The notes under the pieces: generated by a model
The model's database searches: none
Told to the model about the DNA's origin: nothing
Seen by the model: only the letters and a program-made list of their open reading frames with translations
Shown here: piece after piece, positions 53-12,801 of the stretch
How positions within the stretch are numbered: the first letter of the stretch is position 1
How the letters are laid out: each line of letters begins with the position of its first letter
Origin: an uncultured Spiribacter sp.
Lineage (GTDB): Bacteria; Pseudomonadota; Gammaproteobacteria; Nitrococcales; Nitrococcaceae
Reading direction: 5' to 3'
Length of the DNA stretch: 64,000 nt
Assembly (NCBI GenBank): GCA_937884605.1
Contig: CALGDM010000013.1
Coordinates: forward strand, 1-64,000
Program-made: the position numbers and the translations under genes

Positions 53-808
53 ATGAGTGCACAGAAACTAGCGGGTAAGCGCGCCCTGATTACCGGCGGC
101 TCGCGGGGAATCGGCAAGGGGATTGCAACGCTTTTTGCCGAGAATGGCGCGGATGTGGCGTTTTGCCATTACAACGACGATGAGCGTGCCCGCGAGACCG
201 CCCAGGCCATCGAAGCGATGGGGCGTCGGGTTTATTTTGCCGAGTGCGATGTGAGTCAGCCCGCCAACGTGCAGGCGTTCTACGCCGATGCCAAGCAGGC
301 GCTGGGCCAGATCGACATCCTGGTCAACAACGCCGGCCACAACATCACCGAGCCGTTCGAGGACATCAGCGAGGCAAGCTTCGATCGCATGTGGTCGGTG
401 CACGTCAAGGGCACCTACTTTATGACCCAGGCGGTGTATCGCGACATGAAGCCCCGCGGCGAGGGCCGAATCATTAATATCACCTCGCAGCTTGCCTACA
501 AGGGGGCGCCGGCGCTGACCCACTACTGCTCGGCGAAGGGCGCGAACATGACGTTCACCCGGGCGCTGGCGCTGGAGTGTGCTGACACGGGCGTGCGGGT
601 CAACGCGGTTGCCCCCGGTGTCACGCACACCGATCTGCTCACGCCGCTCGCCCAGGAGGTTCTCGATGGACTGAAAGCGGCGATTCCGATCGGACGATTC
701 GGCGATGTCGACGAGATCGCGCCGTCAGCGCTGCTGCTCGCCTCCGATGACGGCAGCTTTTTCCATGGCACCTGCATCTCGCCCAACGGTGGCGAAGTCA
801 TGCTCTGA
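53..808 (+). CDS. SDR-family NAD(P)-dependent oxidoreductase, probably a sugar or polyol dehydrogenase
   Basis: A 251-residue classical short-chain dehydrogenase of normal length. The cofactor motif TGGSRGIG is at residues 14-21, the structural NNAG at 92-95, and the catalytic Ser145, Tyr158 and Lys162 are all present (HYCSAKG). The start follows a strong AGGAGG site. It lies 40 bases upstream of a carbohydrate-type ABC importer on the same strand, so a role in oxidising the imported sugar or polyol is a reasonable inference. The family is too broad to fix the substrate, and glucose 1-dehydrogenase-like and 3-oxoacyl reductase-like activities are both possible. It is soluble, with no signal peptide. 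Confidence 0.85.
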   Translation: MSAQKLAGKRALITGGSRGIGKGIATLFAENGADVAFCHYNDDERARETAQAIEAMGRRVYFAECDVSQPANVQAFYADAKQALGQIDILVNNAGHNITEPFEDISEASFDRMWSVHVKGTYFMTQAVYRDMKPRGEGRIINITSQLAYKGAPALTHYCSAKGANMTFTRALALECADTGVRVNAVAPGVTHTDLLTPLAQEVLDGLKAAIPIGRFGDVDEIAPSALLLASDDGSFFHGTCISPNGGEVML

Positions 809-848
809 TCCCGGAGCCGTTAAAAAAGAAAGAAACGAGGAGAGAATC

Positions 849-2390
849 ATGCGCAGTGAAAATCTGTTGCGTTCAGCAAAGGTCCTGGCCGCTTCGTCGG
901 CGCTGGGGCTTGCGGCCGGCGTGGCGTCGGCCGAGGACTACACCCGGTTTGGCATTGAAAAAGACGTGCCGGGCATGTGCAGCTACGAGTCCATTGATGC
1001 CAAGGACTACAGCGGTCGTGAACTGACCGTGATCACCCATGCCATTCCGGTTATCGGCGAGCCCACCAAGCTGCACGCCGAGCAGTTCTCGGAGCTCACC
1101 GGCGCCGACGTCGAAGTGGTGCATGTGCCGTTTGGCGATCTGTTCCAGCGCATCATGATCCCGTTCCAGACCGGTCAGGACGCCTATGACGTGCTGTTCT
1201 ACGCCTCGCTCTGGCTCGGTGACTACAACCCCTATCTTGCCAATGTGCCCGAGGAGTATCAGTCGACGGCGGGGATGCAGGGGCTCACCGACACGACCCG
1301 CGATGTCGGGATGTGGGGCGGTGAGATGAAGCAGTACATCATGGATGGTGACCGCCATTATCTGAAGTACCGCGAGGATATCTTCAGCGATCCCGACATG
1401 CAGGCGCGCTTCGAGGAAGAAACGGGCCGCGAGTTGACCGTCCCCGAGACCTGGGAGGAGTACAACGAAGTCGCCCGCGTGTTCACCGGCTGGGACTGGG
1501 ATGGCGACGGTGATCCCAACTATGGCTCGGCCGAGGTGGTCAAGCGTGATGACCTGATGTTCTCGGCGTTCATCAGCCGGGCCGCGCCCTATGCCAAGCA
1601 CCCCGATGTGGGCGGCGGGTTTTTCTTTGATCTCGAGACCATGGAGCCGCTGATCAATAACCCGGGATGGGTTCGCGGGCTTGAGCTGTTCGTCGAGGCG
1701 CAGGAGTCATTCCCGCCCGGCGGCACCAACTTTGGCCTGGGCGACGAGATCTTCTCGTTTGGTGGGGGCGAGACGCTGATGAGCTACAGCTGGGATGACG
1801 CGCTCATCCAGGCCCAGCAGGCCGACAGCCCCATCCGCAACGATGTCCGCACGCAGATGCTGCCGGGCGCCCGCGAGGTATGGAACCGCGAGACCGGTGA
1901 ATGGGATACCTTCGAGGAGCCCAACCGCGCGGCCTACATCACCTGGGGCTGGACCAGTGCCGTCGCGCAGTCGAGCCGCAACAAGGACATGGCGTTCGAT
2001 TATCTGTGCTTTTTCTCCAACGAGGCCAATACCCGCCATGACCTGCAGATCGGTCGATTTGGCGTCAATCCCTATCGCACCAGCCACTTCGATGCCGACT
2101 TCTGGGCCGACGACCTGGGCTGGGATCGGGACATGGCCGAGCAGTACGTGGAAACGCTCGAGCGCATCGACGCCTACGACAACCGGGTCTTTGATCTGCG
2201 AGTGCCTGGCGTGGGGCAGTTCATGACCTCGCTCGCGGCCGGCGTGGCCGAGGCGGTTGCCGGTCAGGCGACGCCGCAGGAGGCGCTCGATGGAGTGGCC
2301 GAGGAGTGGTCACGCACGGTCGAGCGGATTGGCAAGGATCGCGTCCGCGAGGCCTACGCCAACGTGGTTGAAATCGAGGACGCGCGCTAG
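849..2390 (+). CDS. ABC transporter substrate-binding protein (sugar/polyol type)
   Basis: Extracytoplasmic solute-binding protein, 513 residues. The ORF track opens it at 705, but the likely start is the ATG at 849. That start has an ACGAGGAGAG ribosome site just upstream and begins a clear Sec signal peptide (MRSENLLRSAK, hydrophobic core, cleavage near ASA-E). The mature part has the extracellular-solute-binding family 1 look: an early ELTVITHAIP strand, aromatic clusters, and a WGWTSAV stretch late in the protein. It is longer than typical maltose-type binders (about 400), as in the rhizobial glycerol-binding protein GlpV. It is the first gene of the importer, followed by a stable hairpin and the two permeases. 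The substrate is not certain; glycerol, another polyol or a sugar all fit. Confidence 0.85.
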   Translation: MRSENLLRSAKVLAASSALGLAAGVASAEDYTRFGIEKDVPGMCSYESIDAKDYSGRELTVITHAIPVIGEPTKLHAEQFSELTGADVEVVHVPFGDLFQRIMIPFQTGQDAYDVLFYASLWLGDYNPYLANVPEEYQSTAGMQGLTDTTRDVGMWGGEMKQYIMDGDRHYLKYREDIFSDPDMQARFEEETGRELTVPETWEEYNEVARVFTGWDWDGDGDPNYGSAEVVKRDDLMFSAFISRAAPYAKHPDVGGGFFFDLETMEPLINNPGWVRGLELFVEAQESFPPGGTNFGLGDEIFSFGGGETLMSYSWDDALIQAQQADSPIRNDVRTQMLPGAREVWNRETGEWDTFEEPNRAAYITWGWTSAVAQSSRNKDMAFDYLCFFSNEANTRHDLQIGRFGVNPYRTSHFDADFWADDLGWDRDMAEQYVETLERIDAYDNRVFDLRVPGVGQFMTSLAAGVAEAVAGQATPQEALDGVAEEWSRTVERIGKDRVREAYANVVEIEDAR

Positions 2391-2403
2391 CTCGTCATCC
2401 CGG

Positions 2404-2432
2404 GGGGCGGGTCGGCGTTGTCGGCCCGCCCC
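2404..2432 (+). promoter_or_regulatory. Intercistronic stem-loop after the binding-protein gene
   Basis: GGGGCGGGTCG pairs with CGGCCCGCCCC across a 7-base loop, giving an 11-bp stem with one G-U pair. No T-run follows, so it is not a typical intrinsic terminator. Such hairpins between a binding-protein gene and permease genes are known to stabilise the upstream mRNA so that more binding protein than permease is made. That role is inferred here from position. Confidence 0.55.
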
Positions 2433-2476
2433 TGTTGATGGGATCGACGACGGTCTGACCGTGCGGAGCGGGGCAC

Positions 2477-3343
2477 ATGTACCGACAGAAACATCTCTTT
2501 CTTTTACCCGGTTTGCTGGTGCTGGTGGCGATCATCATTTTCCCGCTGCTGTTCACCATCCGGGTCAGTTTTTCCAGCTGGGACGTCTTCCAGCCCGGGC
2601 TGGACTGGATTGCCGGCGCCAACTATGGCCGCCTGCTCGAGGACGCGCGCTACTGGGGGGCGCTGGGACGCCTGATGATCATGGCGGTCGGGACGGTGCT
2701 GATTCAGTACACCCTCGGCTTTGCCCTGGCCTTGCTGGTCTGGGGTGACTTGAAGGCCCGGCGCTTTTTTCGGGTGTTGTTCCTGGTGCCGATGATGACC
2801 ACGCCAGTGATCATGTCGGTGATCTGGCGCACGGTGTTTCATGAAAGCATCGGACCGCTCAATGGCCTGCTCCAGGCGCTGGGGCTGCAGGGCGTGCCCT
2901 GGCTGTCCGAGCCGGCGCTGGCGTTTGCCAGTGTCATGATGGTCGAGATCTGGCAGTGGACGCCGTTCATGTTCCTGCTGTTGCTGGCAGGCCTGGTGTC
3001 GTTGCCGCGCGAGCCCTATCTGGCGGCCAGGATCGACGGCGCGGGCCCCATTCGGACGTTTTTTGCCGTGACCTTTCCGGCCATGGCGGGCATTTCCATC
3101 GCGGCCATCCTGATCCGGCTGATTGAGGCCTCGAAGATCATGGAGTCGGTCTACGTCATGACGTCGGGCGGGCCGGGTACCGCCACCGAGACCTCCACCT
3201 ACTACATCTACATCCGCGGATTGCGCGACTTCCAGCTGGGATACGCATCGGCGCTGTCGGTGACCTATCTGGTGATCATGATCATCAGCCTGACGATCAT
3301 CGCCAAGGTGCTCGTGAGGCTCTTCGTGAAGGATCGAACATGA
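2477..3343 (+). CDS. ABC transporter permease, first subunit (MalF/GlpP type)
   Basis: A 288-residue inner-membrane permease with six predicted hydrophobic segments. The first, LFLLPGLLVLVAIIIFPLLF, is close to the N-terminus. The cytoplasmic EAA loop is visible as EPYLAARIDGAGPIRTFF, the site that contacts the ATPase subunits. The length matches MalF-type sugar/polyol permeases that lack the large periplasmic loop of E. coli MalF. The stop codon overlaps the next permease start by four bases (ATGA), indicating translational coupling. It forms the translocation channel with the next gene. Confidence 0.9.
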   Translation: MYRQKHLFLLPGLLVLVAIIIFPLLFTIRVSFSSWDVFQPGLDWIAGANYGRLLEDARYWGALGRLMIMAVGTVLIQYTLGFALALLVWGDLKARRFFRVLFLVPMMTTPVIMSVIWRTVFHESIGPLNGLLQALGLQGVPWLSEPALAFASVMMVEIWQWTPFMFLLLLAGLVSLPREPYLAARIDGAGPIRTFFAVTFPAMAGISIAAILIRLIEASKIMESVYVMTSGGPGTATETSTYYIYIRGLRDFQLGYASALSVTYLVIMIISLTIIAKVLVRLFVKDRT

Positions 3344-4182
3344 AAACCGTGTATCTGGCGATCAAGTATCTGGCGATCCTGCTGTGGTCAAGCTTTGTGC
3401 TGTTCCCGTTTCTCTGGGCGGTGACGACCTCGTTCAAGACCGCCAACGGCGTGACGGGCGGAGCCACCTGGATCCCCTGGCTGCAGTACGAGCCGAGTCT
3501 GCAGGGCTGGCAGTCGCTGTTTGGCGGCTCGGGTGGCACTGATATCACCGGCCCTTATTTCAACAGCATCATCGTCACCGGCTCGGCGTCGCTGATCAGC
3601 ATTGTGCTGGGGACATTGGCCGCCTACGGCCTGTCGCGTTTTACGTTCAAGGCGGGCTTTATCCGCAATGCGGACATTACGTTCTTTTTCATCTCGCAGC
3701 GGATCATGCCGCCCATCGTGCTGGCGATCCCGTTTTTTCTGCTGCTGCGGCAGCTGGGGCTGCTGGATACGCTGGCCGGGCTGATCCTGGTGTATATCGC
3801 CCTGTTGCTGCCCATCGCGGTGTGGGTGATGGTGGACTTCTTCAACAACGTACCGCGCCAGCTCGACGAGATGGCGTGGCTCGACGGGTGTACGCCGATG
3901 ACGACGTTCTACCGCGTCATCCTGCCCAACTCCGTGCCGGGTCTGATCGTTGCCGGCATGTTCTGCCTGATCTTTGGCTGGAACGATTTCTTTTTTGCTT
4001 TCACGCTCACGTTCACCGACACCCAGCTATTGCCGGTGGCAATCGTCGCGCTCAACTCGTCGGTAACACCGTGGTGGTCGCTTTCGGCCTCCGCTCTCAT
4101 CTCTGTCGCCCCGCTGATTCTGCTGGCCTTTGTGGTCGAGCGTTTCCTCTCGCGGGGTGGCCTGGCCGGTGCAGTGAGGTAG
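3340..4182 (+). CDS. ABC transporter permease, second subunit (MalG/GlpQ type)
   Basis: A 280-residue inner-membrane permease, partner of the preceding gene and coupled to it by an ATGA overlap. Six hydrophobic segments are visible. The EAA loop reads DEMAWLDGCTPMTTFYRVILP, the usual carbohydrate-uptake type with Asp-Gly. The N-terminal WSSFVLFPFLWAVTTSFK is typical of MalG-like subunits. Four bases separate it from the first ATPase gene. Confidence 0.9.
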   Translation: MKTVYLAIKYLAILLWSSFVLFPFLWAVTTSFKTANGVTGGATWIPWLQYEPSLQGWQSLFGGSGGTDITGPYFNSIIVTGSASLISIVLGTLAAYGLSRFTFKAGFIRNADITFFFISQRIMPPIVLAIPFFLLLRQLGLLDTLAGLILVYIALLLPIAVWVMVDFFNNVPRQLDEMAWLDGCTPMTTFYRVILPNSVPGLIVAGMFCLIFGWNDFFFAFTLTFTDTQLLPVAIVALNSSVTPWWSLSASALISVAPLILLAFVVERFLSRGGLAGAVR

Positions 4183-4186
4183 GCCC

Positions 4187-5308
4187 ATGTCGGCATTGAC
4201 GTTGCAGAATCTTAATCTGAGCGTGCGGGACGAGACCTGGCTGGATGATATCTCGCTGCATCTCGAGCCGGGCGCGCTCTACACCCTGCTAGGGCGCACC
4301 GGCGCCGGCAAGACCAGCCTGATACGGGCGATTGCCGGTCTCGAGACGCTGGACGCGGGATCCATCGAGCATGGCGGAGTGCGCTGGGATGGTCTGGCTC
4401 CCTGGCGTCGGCCGGTGGCCATGGTCTATCAGCAGTTCATCAACTATCCGCATCTCTCGGTGCTCGATAATGTGGCCTTCCCGCTGCGTCGCGCCGGCGT
4501 TGCCGCGGCACCGGCCCGCGAACAGGCCTGGCAGACCATTCAGCGGGTGGGACTGGCGGCGATGGCGGATCGCCGCCCCGGTGCGCTGTCCGGCGGCCAG
4601 CAGCAGCGTGTGGCCATCGCCCGGGCGCTGACCAAGGATGCCCCGGTGCTGTTACTCGACGAGCCCCTGGTCAACCTCGATTACAAGCTGCGCGAGCAGA
4701 TGCGCGAGGACCTGGTCGAGCTGCTCGAGGGGCGTCAGTCGACCATTGTGATCTATGCGAGCACCGAGCCGTCGGAGGCGTTGCAGATGAGCGCCCGCCT
4801 GCTGGTGATGGAAGAAGGGCGCGTGGTCCAGGAGGGGCCGCCGCGGCAGGTTTTTGACGCGCCGGCCAGCGTGGGCGCGGCGCGAGTGGTCAATGACCCT
4901 CCGGTGAACATTCTGTCCATGACGCTGGATACCGACGCCGCCGAGGTTGAAAGCCTGGGCTGGTTTTCGCTCGAAACGCTGCTGGGTGTCGAGCGCCTCG
5001 GGTTGGTCGGCGATCAGGGGCTGCCGCCCGGGCAGTACTATCTGGGATTGCGGGCCAGTGATCTGGCCCTGGCGCCGGAGGGTCGCCCGGCGGTGGTTAC
5101 GCTCACCGAGGTCAGCGGCTCGGAGACGGTCACGCATCTCGACATGGCGGGATGCCATCTGGTGCTGCACGAGCGTGCGGTGGTCAATCACCCGGTTGGC
5201 AGCCAGATCCACATTCGGCCGCGGCTCTCGACGGTATTTGTATTCGATCGCAATGGCAGGCGTGTGCATGTCGCGCAGCCCGGTCAGCGTGCGGACTCAA
5301 GGCAGTAA
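4187..5308 (+). CDS. ABC transporter ATP-binding protein, GlpS-like, with a degenerate switch loop
   Basis: A 373-residue ATPase subunit with the C-terminal OB-like domain of carbohydrate importers. Walker A GRTGAGKT is at 36-43, signature LSGGQ at 134-138, and Walker B with catalytic Glu (LLLLDEP) ends at 160. The switch-loop histidine, normally in a THD motif, is missing: the equivalent stretch is YASTEP at 190-195. A similar YATTEP stretch, as I recall it, occurs in the GlpS ATPase of rhizobial glycerol importers, as does the MVYQQFINYP Q-loop region. It is expected to pair with the next gene product as a heterodimer. The importer assignment is firm; the glycerol or polyol specificity is inferred. 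Confidence 0.87.
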   Translation: MSALTLQNLNLSVRDETWLDDISLHLEPGALYTLLGRTGAGKTSLIRAIAGLETLDAGSIEHGGVRWDGLAPWRRPVAMVYQQFINYPHLSVLDNVAFPLRRAGVAAAPAREQAWQTIQRVGLAAMADRRPGALSGGQQQRVAIARALTKDAPVLLLDEPLVNLDYKLREQMREDLVELLEGRQSTIVIYASTEPSEALQMSARLLVMEEGRVVQEGPPRQVFDAPASVGAARVVNDPPVNILSMTLDTDAAEVESLGWFSLETLLGVERLGLVGDQGLPPGQYYLGLRASDLALAPEGRPAVVTLTEVSGSETVTHLDMAGCHLVLHERAVVNHPVGSQIHIRPRLSTVFVFDRNGRRVHVAQPGQRADSRQ

Positions 5309-5313
5309 CACCC

Positions 5314-6387
5314 ATGGCGGATATCCATCTCGAATCACTGGCCCATTCCTACGACCCGGCGGCGACGTCGCCGGAGTATGCGCTCAAGCCCCTCGACATG
5401 ACCTGGCGCAATGGCGAGACCTATGCGCTGCTCGGTCCCTCGGGCTGCGGCAAGAGCACCATGCTCAACATCATCTCGGGCCTTATCCAGCCGAGCCACG
5501 GACGGGTGCTGTTCGACGGCGACGATGTAACCGGGCGGGGCACGGCAGCGCGCAACATCGCCCAGGTCTTTCAGGTTCCGGTCATCTATCGCTCCATGAC
5601 CGTGCGCCAGAACCTGGCGTTTCCGCTGGTCTGCCGGCGTCGTCAACGCGCGGAGATTGATCGGCGGGTCGGTGATGTGGCCGAGCTGCTGGGGCTGCAG
5701 CGCGTGCTCAATCGCCCGGCGGTAGCGCTCACGGCCGACCAGAAGCAGCTTGTCTCACTGGGACGGGCACTGGTGCGTGACGATGTCAGTGCTTTGCTGC
5801 TCGATGAGCCACTCACGGTGATCGACCCGCAACTCAAATTCGAGCTGCGTCGCAAGCTGAAAGAGGTCAATCAGGCGTTCAATATCACCATGGTGCTGGT
5901 GACCCATGACCAGAACGAGGCGCTGACGTTTGCCCGCAGCATCATCGTGATGAACCACGGCGAGATCGTGCAGCAGGGCGATCCGCAGACCCTGTTCGAT
6001 AATCCCCGGACCGAGCATGTGGGCTACTTTATCGGTTCGCCGGCAATGAACTTCCTGCCGGCCGCCCAGAGTGCGGATGCGCTGGGCGTGCTCGACGGCC
6101 AGCTCCAGGTGCCGATGACTTCGGCCATGCGCGGCAGCGATGACCTGAAAATCGCCTTCCGGCCCGAGCACGTCAATCTTGGTGGCGAGGGGCATCGCGT
6201 GGATGCCCGCGTGAAGCGGATCTGGTTCGAGGGGCTCGATCAGGTCCTCGAGCTGGATAGCGGCGGTACCCGGTTCCGCGCCCGGCTCGACGACTGGCGC
6301 GGGACGGTGGGCGATGCCATCGAGCTGCGCGTGATGGACAGTCACCTGCGTGTGTTTCGGGACGGAGAACTGCTCGAGGCGCGGTGA
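5314..6387 (+). CDS. ABC transporter ATP-binding protein, GlpT-like, with a degenerate signature motif
   Basis: A 357-residue ATPase. The ORF track extends it to 5152, but the ATG at 5314, five bases after the previous stop, gives the usual N-terminus (MADIHLESLAHSY). Walker A GPSGCGKS is at 41-48, Walker B with Glu (LLLDEP) at 161-166, and the switch His in THDQ at 197-200. The signature motif is LTADQ (139-143) in place of LSGGQ, and the D-loop LTVIDP is also atypical. IAQVFQVPVIYRSMTV is close to the Q-loop region of GlpT-type proteins. Its defects complement those of the preceding ATPase, so the pair should form one intact and one broken ATP site. Confidence 0.87.
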   Translation: MADIHLESLAHSYDPAATSPEYALKPLDMTWRNGETYALLGPSGCGKSTMLNIISGLIQPSHGRVLFDGDDVTGRGTAARNIAQVFQVPVIYRSMTVRQNLAFPLVCRRRQRAEIDRRVGDVAELLGLQRVLNRPAVALTADQKQLVSLGRALVRDDVSALLLDEPLTVIDPQLKFELRRKLKEVNQAFNITMVLVTHDQNEALTFARSIIVMNHGEIVQQGDPQTLFDNPRTEHVGYFIGSPAMNFLPAAQSADALGVLDGQLQVPMTSAMRGSDDLKIAFRPEHVNLGGEGHRVDARVKRIWFEGLDQVLELDSGGTRFRARLDDWRGTVGDAIELRVMDSHLRVFRDGELLEAR

Positions 6388-6415
6388 CAGGCTCTCGCTG
6401 AACGAGTAGGTTGTT

Positions 6416-6440
6416 GCCTCCCTGGTCAGCGTCGGGAGGC
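6416..6440 (+). promoter_or_regulatory. Hairpin covering the ribosome binding site of the yaiI-like gene
   Basis: GCCTCCC (6416-6422) is perfectly complementary to GGGAGGC (6434-6440). The 3' arm contains the only Shine-Dalgarno-like run (GGGAGG) before the ATG at 6446. If folded, the hairpin would hide the ribosome site. It also sits just downstream of the ABC operon, but there is no T-run, so it is not an obvious terminator. Confidence 0.45.
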
Positions 6441-6445
6441 GCGCA

Positions 6446-6910
6446 ATGCAAAACCCTGGCGCAGTGCACGCGGTGCACTTGTGGGTGGACGCCGACGCCT
6501 GCCCGGTGCCGATCCGCGAAATCCTGTTTCGGGCCGCGCAGCGTGTCAGCGCCCGGCTGACACTGATTGCCAATCGGCCGGTTCCAACGCCGCCCTCGGC
6601 ACTGATTGAATCGGTGCAGGTGGGGGCGGGCTATGACGTGGCCGACGCCGAGATCGTGCGGCGAGTGGGCGAGGGGGATCTGGTGGTCACCAGCGATATC
6701 CCGCTGGCCGCGGAAGTGATCGACAAGGGGGCCCACGTACTGAGCCCCCGCGGCGAGGTGATGGGACGCGAGACCATCCGTGCTCGGCTTCAGATGCGGG
6801 ATTTTATGGAGACACTGCGCGGTAGCGGGATTCATACCGGGGGGCCGGCGGGGCTCACGCATGCCGATCGCAAGGCCTTTGCCGATGCCCTGGATCGGTA
6901 TCTGGCCTGA
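6446..6910 (+). CDS. yaiI: YaiI/YqxD family protein (UPF0178)
   Basis: A 154-residue member of the YaiI/YqxD (DUF188) family. The characteristic N-terminus [13 protein letters not shown] is present, followed by [16 protein letters not shown] and RGEVM, with [13 protein letters not shown] near the C-terminus. The length is typical. The family is thought to have a PIN-like nuclease fold, but its biological role is not established. Its start lies behind a hairpin that may restrict translation. It converges with the cyclic-di-GMP gene run, with 3 bases between the two stops. Confidence 0.88.
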
Positions 6911-6913
6911 CCG

Positions 6914-8005
6914 CTAGCCGAACCCGTACGGCTCGCCCGATGCCTTGGCCTGATACATGGCCTGGTCGGCACGCCGCAGCAATGCGTCCCAACCTTGATA
7001 CTCGTTGTGCGTGACGACAACGCCGGCGCTGGCCCCGACTCGAAACGTCAGCTCGCGGCGGTCATTGCTGACGGTCATGGGCTGGCTGATGCCATCCACG
7101 AGCCGCCGCGCGATGACACCGGCCTCTTCGCGGGCTTTGTCTCCGGTGGAGTCCAGATCCCTGGCGATGACCACGAACTCGTCACCACCGTAGCGATAAC
7201 CGGCGTCGTCAGGACGCTGGAGCCCATTGATGCGCTCGCCGATCCGCGTGAGCACACGATCGCCGACGGCATGGCCGTAGTTGTCATTGATCTCCTTGAA
7301 GTGGTTGAGGTCGACGAAGATGACGGCGGCATGGCGGTCCGCATCGCGATCGCGCTCGCCGTTGTCGCCGGTTTCCGCCGCGCCGCTGCGGGCTAGCGCC
7401 ATGTGCAGGCTGTGGCGGTTGGGCATCTGGGTGACGGAGTCATAGAGTGCCCGACGCGCCTGCCGCTCGAGATCGCGCTTATCGAGAGTAAACGCAACCA
7501 CATTGGCGACTGTACGCAGCAGATCGATCTCGCCGGTCAGAAAGTGGCGGTGAGCGTGTACCGAGTCGTAGCCCATAAAACCGGCGATTTCCCCGTGCAT
7601 CATCATGGGGACCGCCAGGAGCGACTTGATGCCCTGATCCTCGAGGATGCTTTTTTCGGGGCGTCGATCCGACAGCGCCCCCACATCGGGAATGTCGACG
7701 ACGCCCTCATTATCGAACAACGTCCACCAGTCGGCGGCAATATCGACGGGCAGATCCTGGAGCTTGTCGATGGCGGGTTCGGTGTTTTCAGCACACCACT
7801 CGTGGGTGTTATCCAGGGCAACGCCATCGCGAATACGAAACACGTAAGTGCGATCGGACTCGGTGAATACGCCGAGTTTTTCGAGCGCCGCCTGAATCGC
7901 CCGGTCCAGATCGTCAGGGCGCGCCCCGAGCAGATCGTTGACGATCTCCATGCTCAGGCGCAGGCCTTGCGTGAGCCGCTCGTGGTCAGGGTCTTGTTCA
8001 GACAT
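6914..8005 (-). CDS. GAF-domain diguanylate cyclase
   Basis: A 363-residue cytoplasmic protein with an N-terminal GAF sensor domain (roughly 20-180, including GIKSLLAVPMMMHGEIAGFMGYD) and a C-terminal GGDEF domain. GGDEF is intact at about 273-277 (YRYGGDEFVVIA). An RxxD inhibitory site (RPDD) lies five residues upstream, so it should make cyclic-di-GMP and be product-inhibited. The ORF track starts at 8116; the ATG at 8005 is preferred because it overlaps the upstream gene's stop by eight bases and gives MSEQDPDHERLTQ. It is the last gene of the minus-strand signalling run. Confidence 0.9.
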   Translation of the reverse strand: MSEQDPDHERLTQGLRLSMEIVNDLLGARPDDLDRAIQAALEKLGVFTESDRTYVFRIRDGVALDNTHEWCAENTEPAIDKLQDLPVDIAADWWTLFDNEGVVDIPDVGALSDRRPEKSILEDQGIKSLLAVPMMMHGEIAGFMGYDSVHAHRHFLTGEIDLLRTVANVVAFTLDKRDLERQARRALYDSVTQMPNRHSLHMALARSGAAETGDNGERDRDADRHAAVIFVDLNHFKEINDNYGHAVGDRVLTRIGERINGLQRPDDAGYRYGGDEFVVIARDLDSTGDKAREEAGVIARRLVDGISQPMTVSNDRRELTFRVGASAGVVVTHNEYQGWDALLRRADQAMYQAKASGEPYGFG

Positions 8006-9908
8006 CGTAATAAGCATTCTGGTGGCCCATGCAGATCCGGTCACGACCCCGATCTTTCGCAGCGTACAGGGCTTTATCGGCATTTTGCAGGAGGGCCTCC
8101 TGATCGCCGGCGTCACTGCTATGGGCGATACCGATGCTCACGCTCAGCCCGATTTCTGCCCCGTCCCACTGGACGGCGATGGCGTGGGTTGCGGTCTGCA
8201 GTCGCTGTCCGATTCGCGCCATCGTGGTCAGGTCAATCCCTGTGGTGATCACGAGGAATTCCTCGCCGCCGGTTCGGCATAGGATTTCGCCCTGACGGGT
8301 CATGCCTGACCACACGCTTGCCACCTCGCTGAGCATACGATCGCCCGCCGCGTGGCCGTGTTTGTCATTGATCCGTTTGAAGTGATCGATATCCAGCGCG
8401 ATGAGGCCGACGGCGGGTCCGCCGCGTGCCCACTTGCCCCAGGCGCGCTCGAGCTCGCTCATTGCAGCGCGTCGATTGGGGAGACCGGTGAGGGCATCGG
8501 TCATCGATAGCGTCTCGAATTTGCGACGGCTGATGACCAGCTGGTTTGCCGTCCGACGCAGATCGCGCCGGTCTGCAACCCACATGGCTCTCAGTGCAGC
8601 GAGTCGGTGCGCGGGGGCGAACCGGCTTGCAAGCGTACGCTCGTCAACGGATCGATCGATGCAGGCGTCGGTACCGGCGTCAAAAAGCCGCGCCTCGGCT
8701 GCCGCATCCAGACCATCGGCGACGAACATGATGTACGTGGTCTGCCCCCATTCCGTCGCGCGGATCAGCCGCAACAGACGTTCCGCGGAGCCCTCGATGT
8801 TTGAGTAATCGAGAACCAGCAGGTCAGGCTGGCGGTCCACCGCTGTTCGCAGCATCTGCTCGGGGTCGTCATGCTGACAGACCGAAAAACCCGCTGCGCG
8901 GGCCCCCGCGACCAACGGGCCCTCGGCCGCATCCTGCAGGATGAGCGCGGTTTTCTCGTCGTCGGCGGAGTCGCTATCGGCCCGCGCGATCGATGTTTCC
9001 GAACCGGTGGCGACCGGCTCATGAGCCGGCGTCTCAGGCAGGTTGAACAGCGGCGCCCACTGGCGCCACTCCGTCACGGCATCGGCGAAGCGGGCACTCA
9101 GGGTTTGCGGATCCATGTTGAGTGCGTCGGCCGCGAGCCCTTCGAGGACCTCGCGGTCCTGCGCGGATACCGGTTGATCACCGCTCATGATCCCGTCATT
9201 AGCGAGTTGAAAGGCGATATGGAACAAGGCGGCGATACGGAACGAACGGGCATCGACGGTGGCGTCGAGCTGCTCGGGCCTCTCGTGATGAGCGGCGGGC
9301 CGGGCGAGTGGCTCCGGCACGCCATAGTCGCGCATCATTTCGTAGGACAGGTCATTGTGATCAAAGCCGAAGCGCTCGCGCTCGCCAACGCTGATCGACC
9401 CCTCTTTTCGGGTGAGGACTTCCGCATATTCGTGGGGGTAGGCGGTCGCAAGGGCCAGACAGCCGATCCGGGCTAGCAACGCGCAGGCAAAGATGTCGTC
9501 CCGCGGTGCGGTACTGGACTCGCCAACCAGGTCGCGCGCAATCATCGCTGCCAGCAGCGAATGGGCTGAAAAGCCGCCATAGTCAAATGCCGTGCAGCGT
9601 TGCTGCCCGGGGCGGTCGACCAGCGAGAACGCGACGGCGACCTGCTTGACCGTATCGACTCCCACCCGCATGACCGCCTCTCGGATGGAGACAACCGGAC
9701 GCGCCGCTTCGCTTGCTGCGTTAGCCAGGCGCAGCAGACGACCACTGAGTGCGGGATCTGTCTCGACGAGCTGCGTCACCTCGTCGACAGAGGGGGCCGC
9801 ATTCTGCCAGAGCTCCATGATGGCCAGGGCCACGCCGTTGGGACTGGGCAGCTCGTCGGTGGCGTCTTTGAGGATGAGTTGGGATCGCTGCATCACTGGT
9901 GAGTCCAT
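7998..9908 (-). CDS. HDOD - pseudo-receiver - GGEEF signalling protein
   Basis: A 636-residue three-part protein. Residues about 10-210 are an HDOD domain (LPSPNGVALAIMELW, SIREAVMRVG). About 310-430 is a response-regulator-like receiver that keeps the Asp in LLVLDYSN but lacks the conserved Lys near its end (GTDACIDRSV). The C-terminus is a GGDEF domain with GGEEF at 547-551, an active-type signature. The RxxD position reads RQGE, so product inhibition may be lost. The start codon directly follows the stop of the PAS-GGDEF-EAL gene. The receiver may act as a protein-interaction module and not a phosphoacceptor. Confidence 0.88.
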   Translation of the reverse strand: MDSPVMQRSQLILKDATDELPSPNGVALAIMELWQNAAPSVDEVTQLVETDPALSGRLLRLANAASEAARPVVSIREAVMRVGVDTVKQVAVAFSLVDRPGQQRCTAFDYGGFSAHSLLAAMIARDLVGESSTAPRDDIFACALLARIGCLALATAYPHEYAEVLTRKEGSISVGERERFGFDHNDLSYEMMRDYGVPEPLARPAAHHERPEQLDATVDARSFRIAALFHIAFQLANDGIMSGDQPVSAQDREVLEGLAADALNMDPQTLSARFADAVTEWRQWAPLFNLPETPAHEPVATGSETSIARADSDSADDEKTALILQDAAEGPLVAGARAAGFSVCQHDDPEQMLRTAVDRQPDLLVLDYSNIEGSAERLLRLIRATEWGQTTYIMFVADGLDAAAEARLFDAGTDACIDRSVDERTLASRFAPAHRLAALRAMWVADRRDLRRTANQLVISRRKFETLSMTDALTGLPNRRAAMSELERAWGKWARGGPAVGLIALDIDHFKRINDKHGHAAGDRMLSEVASVWSGMTRQGEILCRTGGEEFLVITTGIDLTTMARIGQRLQTATHAIAVQWDGAEIGLSVSIGIAHSSDAGDQEALLQNADKALYAAKDRGRDRICMGHQNAYYDV

Positions 9909-12038
9909 TCAAGACACGGGGAATCGAGGTCCCGGTCCCAGCGGTTGCTGCCGGTCCGGGTCACGCGGGGTATGGGTGAGCGCGCTCAGCAGGGCGCGGA
10001 GCAGTTCATCGCGCTGTTGCATCAATGACTGCCAGCGCTCCGGTGACGGTTGGTGTGTCGCGTTGAGACAACGCAGCGCCTCATTGTGGATCGAACGGTG
10101 GAGGTCGCGGATACGGATGAGCGCGGATCGCCGCTCGCGATCGACGGGCGTCAGGGATGCCTCGGAGACTGGCTTGATGTTGGCATCCAGCCACTGCTGC
10201 AATGCTTGCTCCGCGCCCCATGCCGGCGGCACGGATTGATTCTGATAGAGGGCGTGCTCGACCTGACCGAGCCACTGCGAATAGGCGACAAGGGCGAACA
10301 CTGCGGGCATGTCGGCCGGTGTGACCGGCGCCATGGAGCGCCACTGCGCGGGGGGAGTCCATTGAGTCAGCCAGTCCACGAGGGCGGATGCTGGCATGGG
10401 CGGTGCAATGCCAAAACCCTGGGCGCGCTCGCAGCCAAGCGCGAGCAGCATTGTGCCGTGATCGAGCGTCTCGACGCCCTCGGCAATGGTCTGGCGAGCC
10501 AGTTTGCGGGCCAGGCTCTGGACACCATCGAGAATCGCCAGGTCATCGGGGTCATCGAGCATGTCACCGACAAACGTCCGATCAATCTTTAACTGCGGCG
10601 CGGGCAGATTCTTGAGGTAATTGAGGGTCGCGTAGCCGGTGCCGAAGTCATCCAGTGAGAATCCGATCCCCAGCCGCCGGCACGCGTCGATCACGGATCT
10701 GACTCGGGCGATATCGTCCAGGGCGCTGCTCTCGAGGACTTCCAGCTCGAGGTCGCCGGGTTGCAGGGTGGGATGCCGGGCCAGGCAGCGCTCGAGCTTA
10801 TCGATGAAGTCGGGTTGGGCGATCTGATAGCCATCGACATTAATGCTGACGGGCAGGGCATAGCCCTGCTCGCGCCACGCCACCACTTGCCGGGCGGCCG
10901 TCTCGAGCACCCAGTCACCGACTTCGACGCTTACTGGTGTGGCCTCGAGGGCGGGCAGGAAATCACCGGGCGGGAGCAGACCGTGGTCGGGATGCTGCCA
11001 GCGGATTAACGCCTCGGCGCCGATGACCCGGCCATCCGGTAGATGGACCTTGGGTTGGTAGTGCAGTGTGAATTCACGCCGGCCCAATGCTTGACGAACG
11101 GCGTCAATGGTCTCGTTCTGATCGCGCACCGCCGAGTCGTGGTCGGGGTCAAAGATCGCAATCCGGTTTTTGCCCGCCTGTTTGGCGGCGTACATGGCAT
11201 GGTCGGCCTGACGGATAAGCTGCTCCGCCTCGAGCGCCGCGGCCTGGGGGTAGAGCGCCAGCCCAATGCTGGCGGACGGTACGTTCGTCCGAGGCCGGCG
11301 AGCGGCTGAGCGCAGCGGCGCGCGATGGGCGCTGGCAATACGCCGCCGGGCCTCCTCGACATCGCGGACACCCTCGATGACAACGACAAACTCATCGCCG
11401 CCGACACGTGCCAGCATGTCGTCATCGCGCAGCGCGGTGGCAATGCGCCGGGCAATGCCGGCGAGGATCCGGTCACTCCGAGCAAAGCCATGGGTGTCAT
11501 TGACGGATTTGAAGTCATCGAGATCGATGTACGCGACGGCGAGCTGCTTGTCGGTCCCGTGATGACGATTCATGGCATGGCCGAGTGCTTCATTGAGCCG
11601 TAGCCGGTTTGGCAACCCCGTCAGCGGATCGTAGAGCGCGAGATGCTCGAGGCGCTGTTTGTCACGCGCCTGTTCGGTAATGTCAGTGACCGTCGTCGCT
11701 TTGTAGCGGCGTCCGTTGGGTAGAACGACGCGCGCGGCGGTGACCCAGACCTCACGCAGGGCGCCGTCCTTGCGAACGACCTGCCATTGCCCGGCGCTCT
11801 CGTTGCCACCCCGCAGGAAGGCATCGTGGATGCGCTCGGCGGCCGCCCGTCGATCAGCGGGCAAGACGACGGTGAAGGGCTTGCCGATCAGTTCGTCGGC
11901 GGTGTAGCCGTAGGTCTCGCAGTAGGCCTGATTAACCTTGACAAAGCGACGCTGCTCGTCGGTAACGCAGATACCGACGTCGGCGGAGTGATACACCGCC
12001 TCGAGTAGCGCGGATTCGTCCGATGCGTTCAGCCCCAT
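9909..12038 (-). CDS. PAS-GGDEF-EAL cyclic-di-GMP turnover protein
   Basis: A 709-residue protein: a PAS/PAC sensor (about 15-125), GGDEF (ARVGGDEFVVVIEG with upstream RDDD I-site) and a complete EAL domain (GAEALIRWQHP, DDFGTGYATL, LKIDRTFV, IAEGVET). Both synthesis and hydrolysis of cyclic-di-GMP are therefore possible. A helical C-terminal tail of about 130 residues has a YSQWLGQVEHAL...LHRSIHNEA pattern, reminiscent of a CZB domain that has lost some metal ligands; this is a weak call. The ORF extends to 12158, but the ATG at 12038 starts just before the PAS domain and avoids overlap with the TVP38 gene. A GGAGGAG run lies 19 bases ahead, an unusually long spacing. Confidence 0.88.
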   Translation of the reverse strand: MGLNASDESALLEAVYHSADVGICVTDEQRRFVKVNQAYCETYGYTADELIGKPFTVVLPADRRAAAERIHDAFLRGGNESAGQWQVVRKDGALREVWVTAARVVLPNGRRYKATTVTDITEQARDKQRLEHLALYDPLTGLPNRLRLNEALGHAMNRHHGTDKQLAVAYIDLDDFKSVNDTHGFARSDRILAGIARRIATALRDDDMLARVGGDEFVVVIEGVRDVEEARRRIASAHRAPLRSAARRPRTNVPSASIGLALYPQAAALEAEQLIRQADHAMYAAKQAGKNRIAIFDPDHDSAVRDQNETIDAVRQALGRREFTLHYQPKVHLPDGRVIGAEALIRWQHPDHGLLPPGDFLPALEATPVSVEVGDWVLETAARQVVAWREQGYALPVSINVDGYQIAQPDFIDKLERCLARHPTLQPGDLELEVLESSALDDIARVRSVIDACRRLGIGFSLDDFGTGYATLNYLKNLPAPQLKIDRTFVGDMLDDPDDLAILDGVQSLARKLARQTIAEGVETLDHGTMLLALGCERAQGFGIAPPMPASALVDWLTQWTPPAQWRSMAPVTPADMPAVFALVAYSQWLGQVEHALYQNQSVPPAWGAEQALQQWLDANIKPVSEASLTPVDRERRSALIRIRDLHRSIHNEALRCLNATHQPSPERWQSLMQQRDELLRALLSALTHTPRDPDRQQPLGPGPRFPVS

Positions 12039-12123
12039 AAGCGTACTTGGCCAGTCTCTCCTCCCGCGTCGACCCGCGCGGCTGTGTCGATGATATCGGA
12101 TTCGAGCAGCATTGAAATCTCTA

Positions 12124-12801
12124 TCAGTGCGAATCCCCCGGGGGTCGATCATCAACATCCGGCAGACCGCCGCGCAGGCTGCGTATCAGGCGCGGCAGAA
12201 AGGCCAGACTCGCGACCAGCGCCACCGCGATCAATAGCGCCTGCACGACATTCCCCCCACCCGTCAGCGCCTGGCGGCCGGCATGCCCGATCCACACATA
12301 GGCCAGCGCGCCCGGTGCCATCGCAACCATCGAGGTCAGCACGTAGACGCGCAAGCCGATGCGCGTCAGTCCGAGCATGTAGTTGAGCAGATTGAAGGGG
12401 ACCAGCGGAACCAGCCGCATCAGCGCGACAAAGCGCCAGCCCTCGCGATCGATACCGGCCTGGAGGCGATTCAGCCGGGCGCCGCTGCGCCGCTCGACGG
12501 CAGGGCCCAGGCCATGCCGGGCGGCGACGAAGGCAAGCGTCGCGCCGGCGGTGGCACCGATCAGGCTGTAGAAAGTGCCCCAGACCGGCCCGAACAACGC
12601 GCCGCCACTAATGGTGAAGACCAGGCCGGGCAAAAACGCCACCGTCCCGAGGGCATAGGCCGCGACAAAGCCCAGTCCTGCCCATGGCCCAAGCCCGCTG
12701 AGCCAGGCCGCGATGGCCTCGCGGCTGATCTGGTCACGGATCGTGATACCGACGATGATGATTGCGATGACCGTACCGACCAGCAGCCAGCGCCGGGTCA
12801 T
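12124..12801 (-). CDS. TVP38/TMEM64 family membrane protein
   Basis: A 225-residue inner-membrane protein of the TVP38/TMEM64 (DedA-like, SNARE-associated) family. It has an N-terminal membrane anchor, the signature FLPGLVFTISGGALFGPVWGTFYSLIGATAGATLAFV, then LMRLVPLVPFNLLNYMLGLT and two further membrane segments. The start at 12801 overlaps the upstream stop as ATGA; a longer version from 12822 (seven more residues) is possible. The family is often encoded next to flavin disulfide oxidoreductases, as here. The proteins are candidates for lipid or small-molecule movement, with no settled substrate. Confidence 0.9.
   Translation of the reverse strand: MTRRWLLVGTVIAIIIVGITIRDQISREAIAAWLSGLGPWAGLGFVAAYALGTVAFLPGLVFTISGGALFGPVWGTFYSLIGATAGATLAFVAARHGLGPAVERRSGARLNRLQAGIDREGWRFVALMRLVPLVPFNLLNYMLGLTRIGLRVYVLTSMVAMAPGALAYVWIGHAGRQALTGGGNVVQALLIAVALVASLAFLPRLIRSLRGGLPDVDDRPPGDSH

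Follow-up and report, generated by a model that had tools for sequence, protein, structure and literature searches.

An operon at the start of the 64,000-nucleotide stretch of DNA analysed here (the window) encodes an ABC importer with two different ATPases, S and T, whose losses come together in one of the two composite ATP sites. It is postulated that the system is a type I (CUT1-like) importer in which S and T form an obligate heterodimer, that ATP is hydrolysed at the site on T while the ATP bound by S acts as a clamp, and that the ATPase pair has been joined by a module swap to the permeases of another importer, a reading to which a probability of roughly 85% is given. Alignments, profile scores and trees establish the composite degenerate site, its fixation among relatives, the co-inheritance of S and T, and the separate histories of the ATPases and the permeases.

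The operon and its products

The operon lies on the plus strand at positions 53-6387, in the order SDR, SBP, P, Q, S, T, with the following features:

53..808, plus strand, SDR (short-chain dehydrogenase/reductase), which opens the operon; the order is the same in the congener locus L209
849..2390, plus strand, periplasmic solute-binding protein (SBP) of 513 aa, SBP_bac_8 by Pfam, not GlpV-like
2477..3343, plus strand, permease P, MalF-like by Pfam
3017-3043, plus strand, EAA loop of permease P, YLAARIDGA, without Glu
3340..4182, plus strand, permease Q, MalG-like by Pfam
3868-3891, plus strand, EAA loop of permease Q, EMAWLDGC, Glu present
4187..5308, plus strand, ATPase S of 373 aa, GlpS-like NBD with a MalK-type C-terminal domain
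4586..4609, plus strand, signature of S, LSGGQQQR, intact, completing the consensus ATP site on T
4754..4771, plus strand, switch loop of S, YASTEP, degenerate, with Thr193 at the place of MalK His192
5314..6387, plus strand, ATPase T of 357 aa, a GlpT-like ATPase and not the G3P antiporter
5728..5751, plus strand, signature of T, LTADQKQL, degenerate, facing the ATP bound by S
5899..5913, plus strand, switch loop of T, VTHDQ, intact

All of the frames are open, and the ATG of T lies 5 bp past the stop of S. The products have the hallmarks of a CUT1/MalK-type system: the MalK fold with its C-terminal regulatory domain, two MalF/G-like permeases, and an extracytoplasmic binding protein. The first base of the window is also that of its contig, so that only 52 bp precede the first gene, and the upstream side of the operon was consequently examined in the congener locus L209. 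Downstream, three consecutive GGDEF/EAL/HDOD-like signalling genes, recognised from their translations, occupy positions 6914-12158 of the minus strand.

One consensus and one degenerate ATP site

Each ATP site of an ABC dimer is built from the Walker A and B motifs and the A-, Q- and H-loops of one NBD together with the signature of its partner (PMC7756269). Identity to E. coli MalK is about 30% for each of S and T; between the two it is 27%. In MalK numbering, S carries the Walker A sequence GRTGAGKTS, Q82, LSGGQ, DE158-159 and D165, with Thr at the His192 position and Val13 in place of the A-loop aromatic W13; T has an A-loop Tyr, GPSGCGKST, Q82, LTADQ, DE, the D-loop LTVIDP, and His192. 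Position 47 is Arg in S and Asn in T.

The first-pass annotation had read the first ATPase as having a normal LSGGQ and a replaced switch His (YASTEP), and the second as having a normal switch His (VTHDQ) and a broken signature (LTADQ). Both readings are borne out by the alignment with E. coli MalK, which puts Thr193 of S at His192, and by the survey described below. Given the composition of sites in ABC dimers (PMC7756269), the site that joins the Walker motifs of S to the signature of T collects all of the defects, the broken signature of T lying opposite the catalytic-loop losses of S, while the site made of the Walker motifs and H-loop of T and the signature of S is complete. Thus, the further claim that both defects fall in the same site is also upheld.

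AlphaFold models of S and T (mean pLDDT 87 and 88, from input alignments of the window and related loci, with plasmid-derived alignments left out) match the structures of MalK, AlgS and SugC over their full length. Of the 60 best-matching PDB sequences, none belongs to a solved structure of a pair of GlpS/GlpT type.

Fixation of the asymmetry among relatives

A profile built from S proteins was run against 399 Pseudomonadota genomes, and the scores split into about 87 matches of at least 360 bits and generic MalK types of no more than about 303 bits. A survey set of 100 S, 100 T and 103 generic MalK-type ATPases, plasmid and GTDB loci included, was aligned jointly in E. coli MalK numbering. 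Whole-profile scores decided membership of the S and T families, and in both profiles they left a clear gap before the generic types. The S sequences were chosen by this score rather than by the sequence patterns GGQQQR and MVYQQF; these were among the patterns used for a separate 80-locus set, which is biased to an intact S signature.

A conserved switch His in the first protein, which the first-pass annotation had named as evidence that would count against its reading, is absent from the family: position 192 is His in none of the 100 S sequences (Thr in 95, Ser in 5), which, because all S/T pairs share one origin, represent a single evolutionary event. The signature GG is found in 0/100 T, the first Gly being replaced by Ala (94) or Pro (6) and the second, at position 137, by Asp (99) or Ala (1). 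By comparison, all 103 generic MalK-type ATPases keep both the switch His and SGG. The complementary elements are invariant, with LSGGQ in 100/100 S and the switch His in 100/100 T, and none of the 200 sequences of the two families has lost the Walker A Lys, the Walker B Asp-Glu or the Q-loop Gln. In addition, two losses that the first-pass annotation had not reported affect the same composite site: an A-loop aromatic is found in only 1/100 S, and the P-loop Gly39 has been changed in most S relatives, the window copy being among the 8/100 that keep it.

The replacement residues are themselves conserved (the switch YA[ST]TEP and the Q-loop QQFINYP in S; the signature L[TS]AD and the D-loop LTVIDP in T), which favours a specific role over decay. 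That the pair is decaying and the importer non-functional in the window organism is scarcely credible. The patchy occurrence of the operon, present in 3/14 genomes of the genus, would fit such a loss, but the open frames, a binding protein 97% identical to that of a congener, the conservation of the same substitutions across Pseudomonadota and Actinomycetota, and the fully intact catalytic residues of the other site all speak against it. S and T each form one clade (100/100 each), so that the asymmetry arose once and was then kept. A sister relationship of S and T by a single duplication was considered but not adopted, the branches of the ATPase tree being long.

Pairing of S and T and docking on the permeases

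S and T are adjacent and on the same strand in 100/100 cases, 97 within the cut-off and 3 as overlapping long open frames, and the window group forms a matching sub-clade in the S and T halves of the tree. At position 47, Arg or Lys is found in 99/100 S and Asn in 99/100 T. In MalFGK2, Arg47 makes a salt bridge with the EAA loop of the permease; an account of this bridge was not found in the literature searched. The relationship between residue 47 and the EAA loops was examined in those canonical systems that have a single P-type and a single Q-type permease in the vicinity. When Arg or Lys is present at 47, an acidic EAA residue is found in 31/34 P and 30/34 Q, and when another residue is present, in 0/16 P and 1/16 Q (Fisher p 2e-10 for P and 2e-8 for Q, values that overstate the covariation, as few independent changes in the tree underlie it). 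In the S/T systems, the EAA loops are mixed in 70/70 checked, with Gln, Leu or Met in P and Glu in Q.

One EAA loop with Glu and one without match the Arg47 of S and the Asn47 of T, and this match, which goes beyond the first-pass annotation, supports a fixed S/T heterodimer. Read most simply, these residues would have S docked against permease Q, and T against permease P. It is very improbable that S and T instead work as homodimers or with other, shared ATPases, such that their defects never meet. There is precedent for sharing, since MsmX energises several importers (PMC7658222), but an S2 dimer would lack the switch His, and a T2 dimer the signature, in either site. The constant side-by-side pairing of S and T, their mirrored trees and the mixed EAA loops likewise disfavour homodimers, the second finding that the first-pass annotation had said would undermine its case.

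As a separate observation, the canonical MalK-type importers L182, L185, L193, L200, L035 and L024 have Asn47 together with Arg or Lys replacing Glu in both EAA loops, and may be a charge-swapped docking variant.

Separate histories of the ATPases and the permeases

S and T fall within the GlpS and GlpT clades (100/100 in the tree, and by profile scores). The same genome also carries an orthodox glp locus (L001, G000:C22:50000-63000, at 1363-11370) in the order glpR, glpD, S, T, P, Q, a small GlpU-like frame, GlpV and glpK. Its ATPase pair, to which the window S and T are 41% and 46% identical, has the same degenerate site. The parallel with GlpS/GlpT, which the first-pass annotation had drawn, is thus confirmed.

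A different affinity was found for the SBP and the two permeases, which score 46, 103 and 97 bits against the Glp set of their own genome versus 291, 224 and 192 bits against single-UgpC importers. The window SBP is 73% identical to Tabrizicola/Ponticoccus plasmid relatives and 34% identical to the SBP of a single-UgpC importer. In a tree of P and Q joined (570 columns), the window clade, which comprises plasmids of Tabrizicola, Ponticoccus and Streptomyces, an Actinobacteria MAG, G481 and a congener, is sister to the single-UgpC group (100/99) and apart from the Glp permeases, and a forced clade of window and Glp permeases is rejected (p-AU 9.6e-6). Among the neighbours in the window and in L209, no GlpU-like gene, glpK, glpD or glpR lies beside the operon. 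Furthermore, at 8815-13269 of L210 (G525:C30:22000-35316), window-type permeases and a binding protein 56% identical to that of the window are accompanied by a single ATPase, as far as can be seen on a contig that stops 48 bp past its gene. This ATPase is canonical (MSGGQ, VTHD, Arg at 47), and both permeases have the EAA Glu.

Judged by these trees and scores, the two ATPases do not share the history of the permeases. Because the ATPases group with Glp, and the permeases and SBP with single-UgpC importers, a pair of GlpST lineage was combined with the permease/binding-protein set of another importer. The non-Glp nature of this set is likewise new relative to the first-pass annotation.

Distribution, neighbours and substrate

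The operon is also found on plasmids of Alphaproteobacteria and Streptomyces, which, together with its patchiness in the genus, suggests horizontal transfer. At its head stands the SDR in the window and a zinc alcohol dehydrogenase (AdhP/IolM/Tdh-like) in relatives, in which a divergently placed regulator, either a sigma-54 activator or a GAF-domain protein (DhaR/AcoR-like), is also found. In locus L209 of the congener G013 (8852-8899 and 6921-8774), the palindrome-like sites TGTCCAGAGATTGGACA and TGTTCAGTTTTTGGACA lie in the stretch that separates the operon from a divergent sigma-54-type activator carrying a GAF domain, a region past the end of the window's contig. A search upstream of the operon in L209 for an exact sigma-54 promoter gave nothing above chance.

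Naming a substrate from the neighbours was attempted and dropped; dehydrogenases and sigma-54 activators recur, and catabolic neighbours vary by host. As a substrate, a small alcohol or a polyol is plausible. When the glp-type ABC importer of Cupriavidus metallidurans is derepressed, the result is resistance to zinc and cadmium (PMC7912956).

A model for the transport cycle

In the proposed mechanism, the ATP bound by T and closed over by the signature of S would be hydrolysed. The ATP bound by S would face the LTAD loop of T in a site without the switch His and the A-loop aromatic; it would undergo little or no hydrolysis and may serve as a structural clamp, with one ATP powering each import cycle. 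S would lie beneath Q, and T beneath P. The pair, taken from a GlpST-type system, would have been joined to a permease/SBP set of a kind that is served in its relatives by one canonical ATPase.

This division of labour is argued by analogy. MalK H192R has less than 2% ATPase, H-loop mutants of HisP and HlyB lose ATPase, and TAP combines an H-loop H/Q change in TAP1 with a signature change from LSGGQ to LAA/VGQ in TAP2 (PMC6222333). From the TAP and MalK H192R precedents, the S site should bind ATP with little hydrolysis, and the T site should hydrolyse it. An H-loop mutant of Pdr5 still hydrolyses ATP (PMC6222333), and because S retains both the Walker Lys and the catalytic Glu, slow or residual hydrolysis at the S site is possible. 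Consequently, of the claim in the first-pass annotation that one site is intact and one dead, the degenerate site stands, but "dead" is better replaced by "probably of low activity".

A stronger version of this argument, in which both sites hydrolyse, another residue replaces the switch His of S, LTAD still closes, and the asymmetry is cosmetic, is unlikely. It would account for the retention of the Walker A Lys, the catalytic Glu and the Q-loop Gln in every S, and the Pdr5 mutant shows that an H-loop change need not abolish ATPase (PMC6222333). However, two or three elements have been lost from one site, the Asp of LTAD occupies the position at which a signature Gly contacts the gamma-phosphate, a search near the S switch loop found no conserved His, and the corresponding mutants of MalK, HisP and HlyB are defective (PMC6222333).

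Taken together, these results raise a more tentative idea, held at slightly worse than even odds: that S/T is a portable, oriented, one-stroke engine, with one hydrolysis per cycle, the second ATP as a permanent clamp, and each ATPase always beneath its own permease (S with Q, T with P), and that it can be transferred between unrelated permeases if the EAA loops adapt, P losing its Glu.

Implications

In the maltose importer, the textbook example of type I, transport is crippled when one of the two ATPase subunits is damaged. A widespread family of importers on the MalK fold with one naturally degenerate site therefore offers a test of the need for two hydrolysis events, of the purpose of the silent site, and of whether one ATP per substrate is sufficient. 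Relatives of the permeases with a canonical single ATPase (the L210 and L008 type) would be natural matched controls, and the EAA/Arg47 pairing provides a sequence rule for which ATPase lies under which permease. The principle of a degenerate site is known from exporters but seemingly undescribed in MalK-type importers; the open-access literature searched (subscription papers lay outside it) contained no description of a degenerate site in MalK-type or carbohydrate importers, or of the GlpS/GlpT asymmetry.

Comparison with known systems

The window importer shares with the E. coli MalFGK2/UgpC-type CUT1 systems the MalK fold and domain order, MalF/MalG-like permeases and a periplasmic binding protein. 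However, MalK forms a homodimer in which both sites are intact, whereas S and T are divergent ATPases with one intact and one degenerate site. The peptide importer DppDF also has two different NBDs, but both Dpp sites hydrolyse ATP (PMC12136057). Among the asymmetric exporters, TAP1/TAP2 likewise brings the loss of a switch His and of a signature together in one site. These exporters differ in having fused TMD-NBD subunits, and in TAP1, CFTR and Pdr5 the Walker B Glu has also been changed, a residue that S and T keep in 200/200.

The closest likeness is to the GlpSTPQUV glycerol importer of Rhizobium leguminosarum (and Cupriavidus Rmet_2229-2234), whose two neighbouring ATPases belong to the S and T lineages found here and have the degenerate site in common with them. 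Yet the gene order is SBP-P-Q-S-T in the window and S-T-P-Q-U-V in GlpSTPQUV, and, unlike that importer, the window system has neither GlpP/GlpQ-type permeases nor a GlpV-type binding protein.
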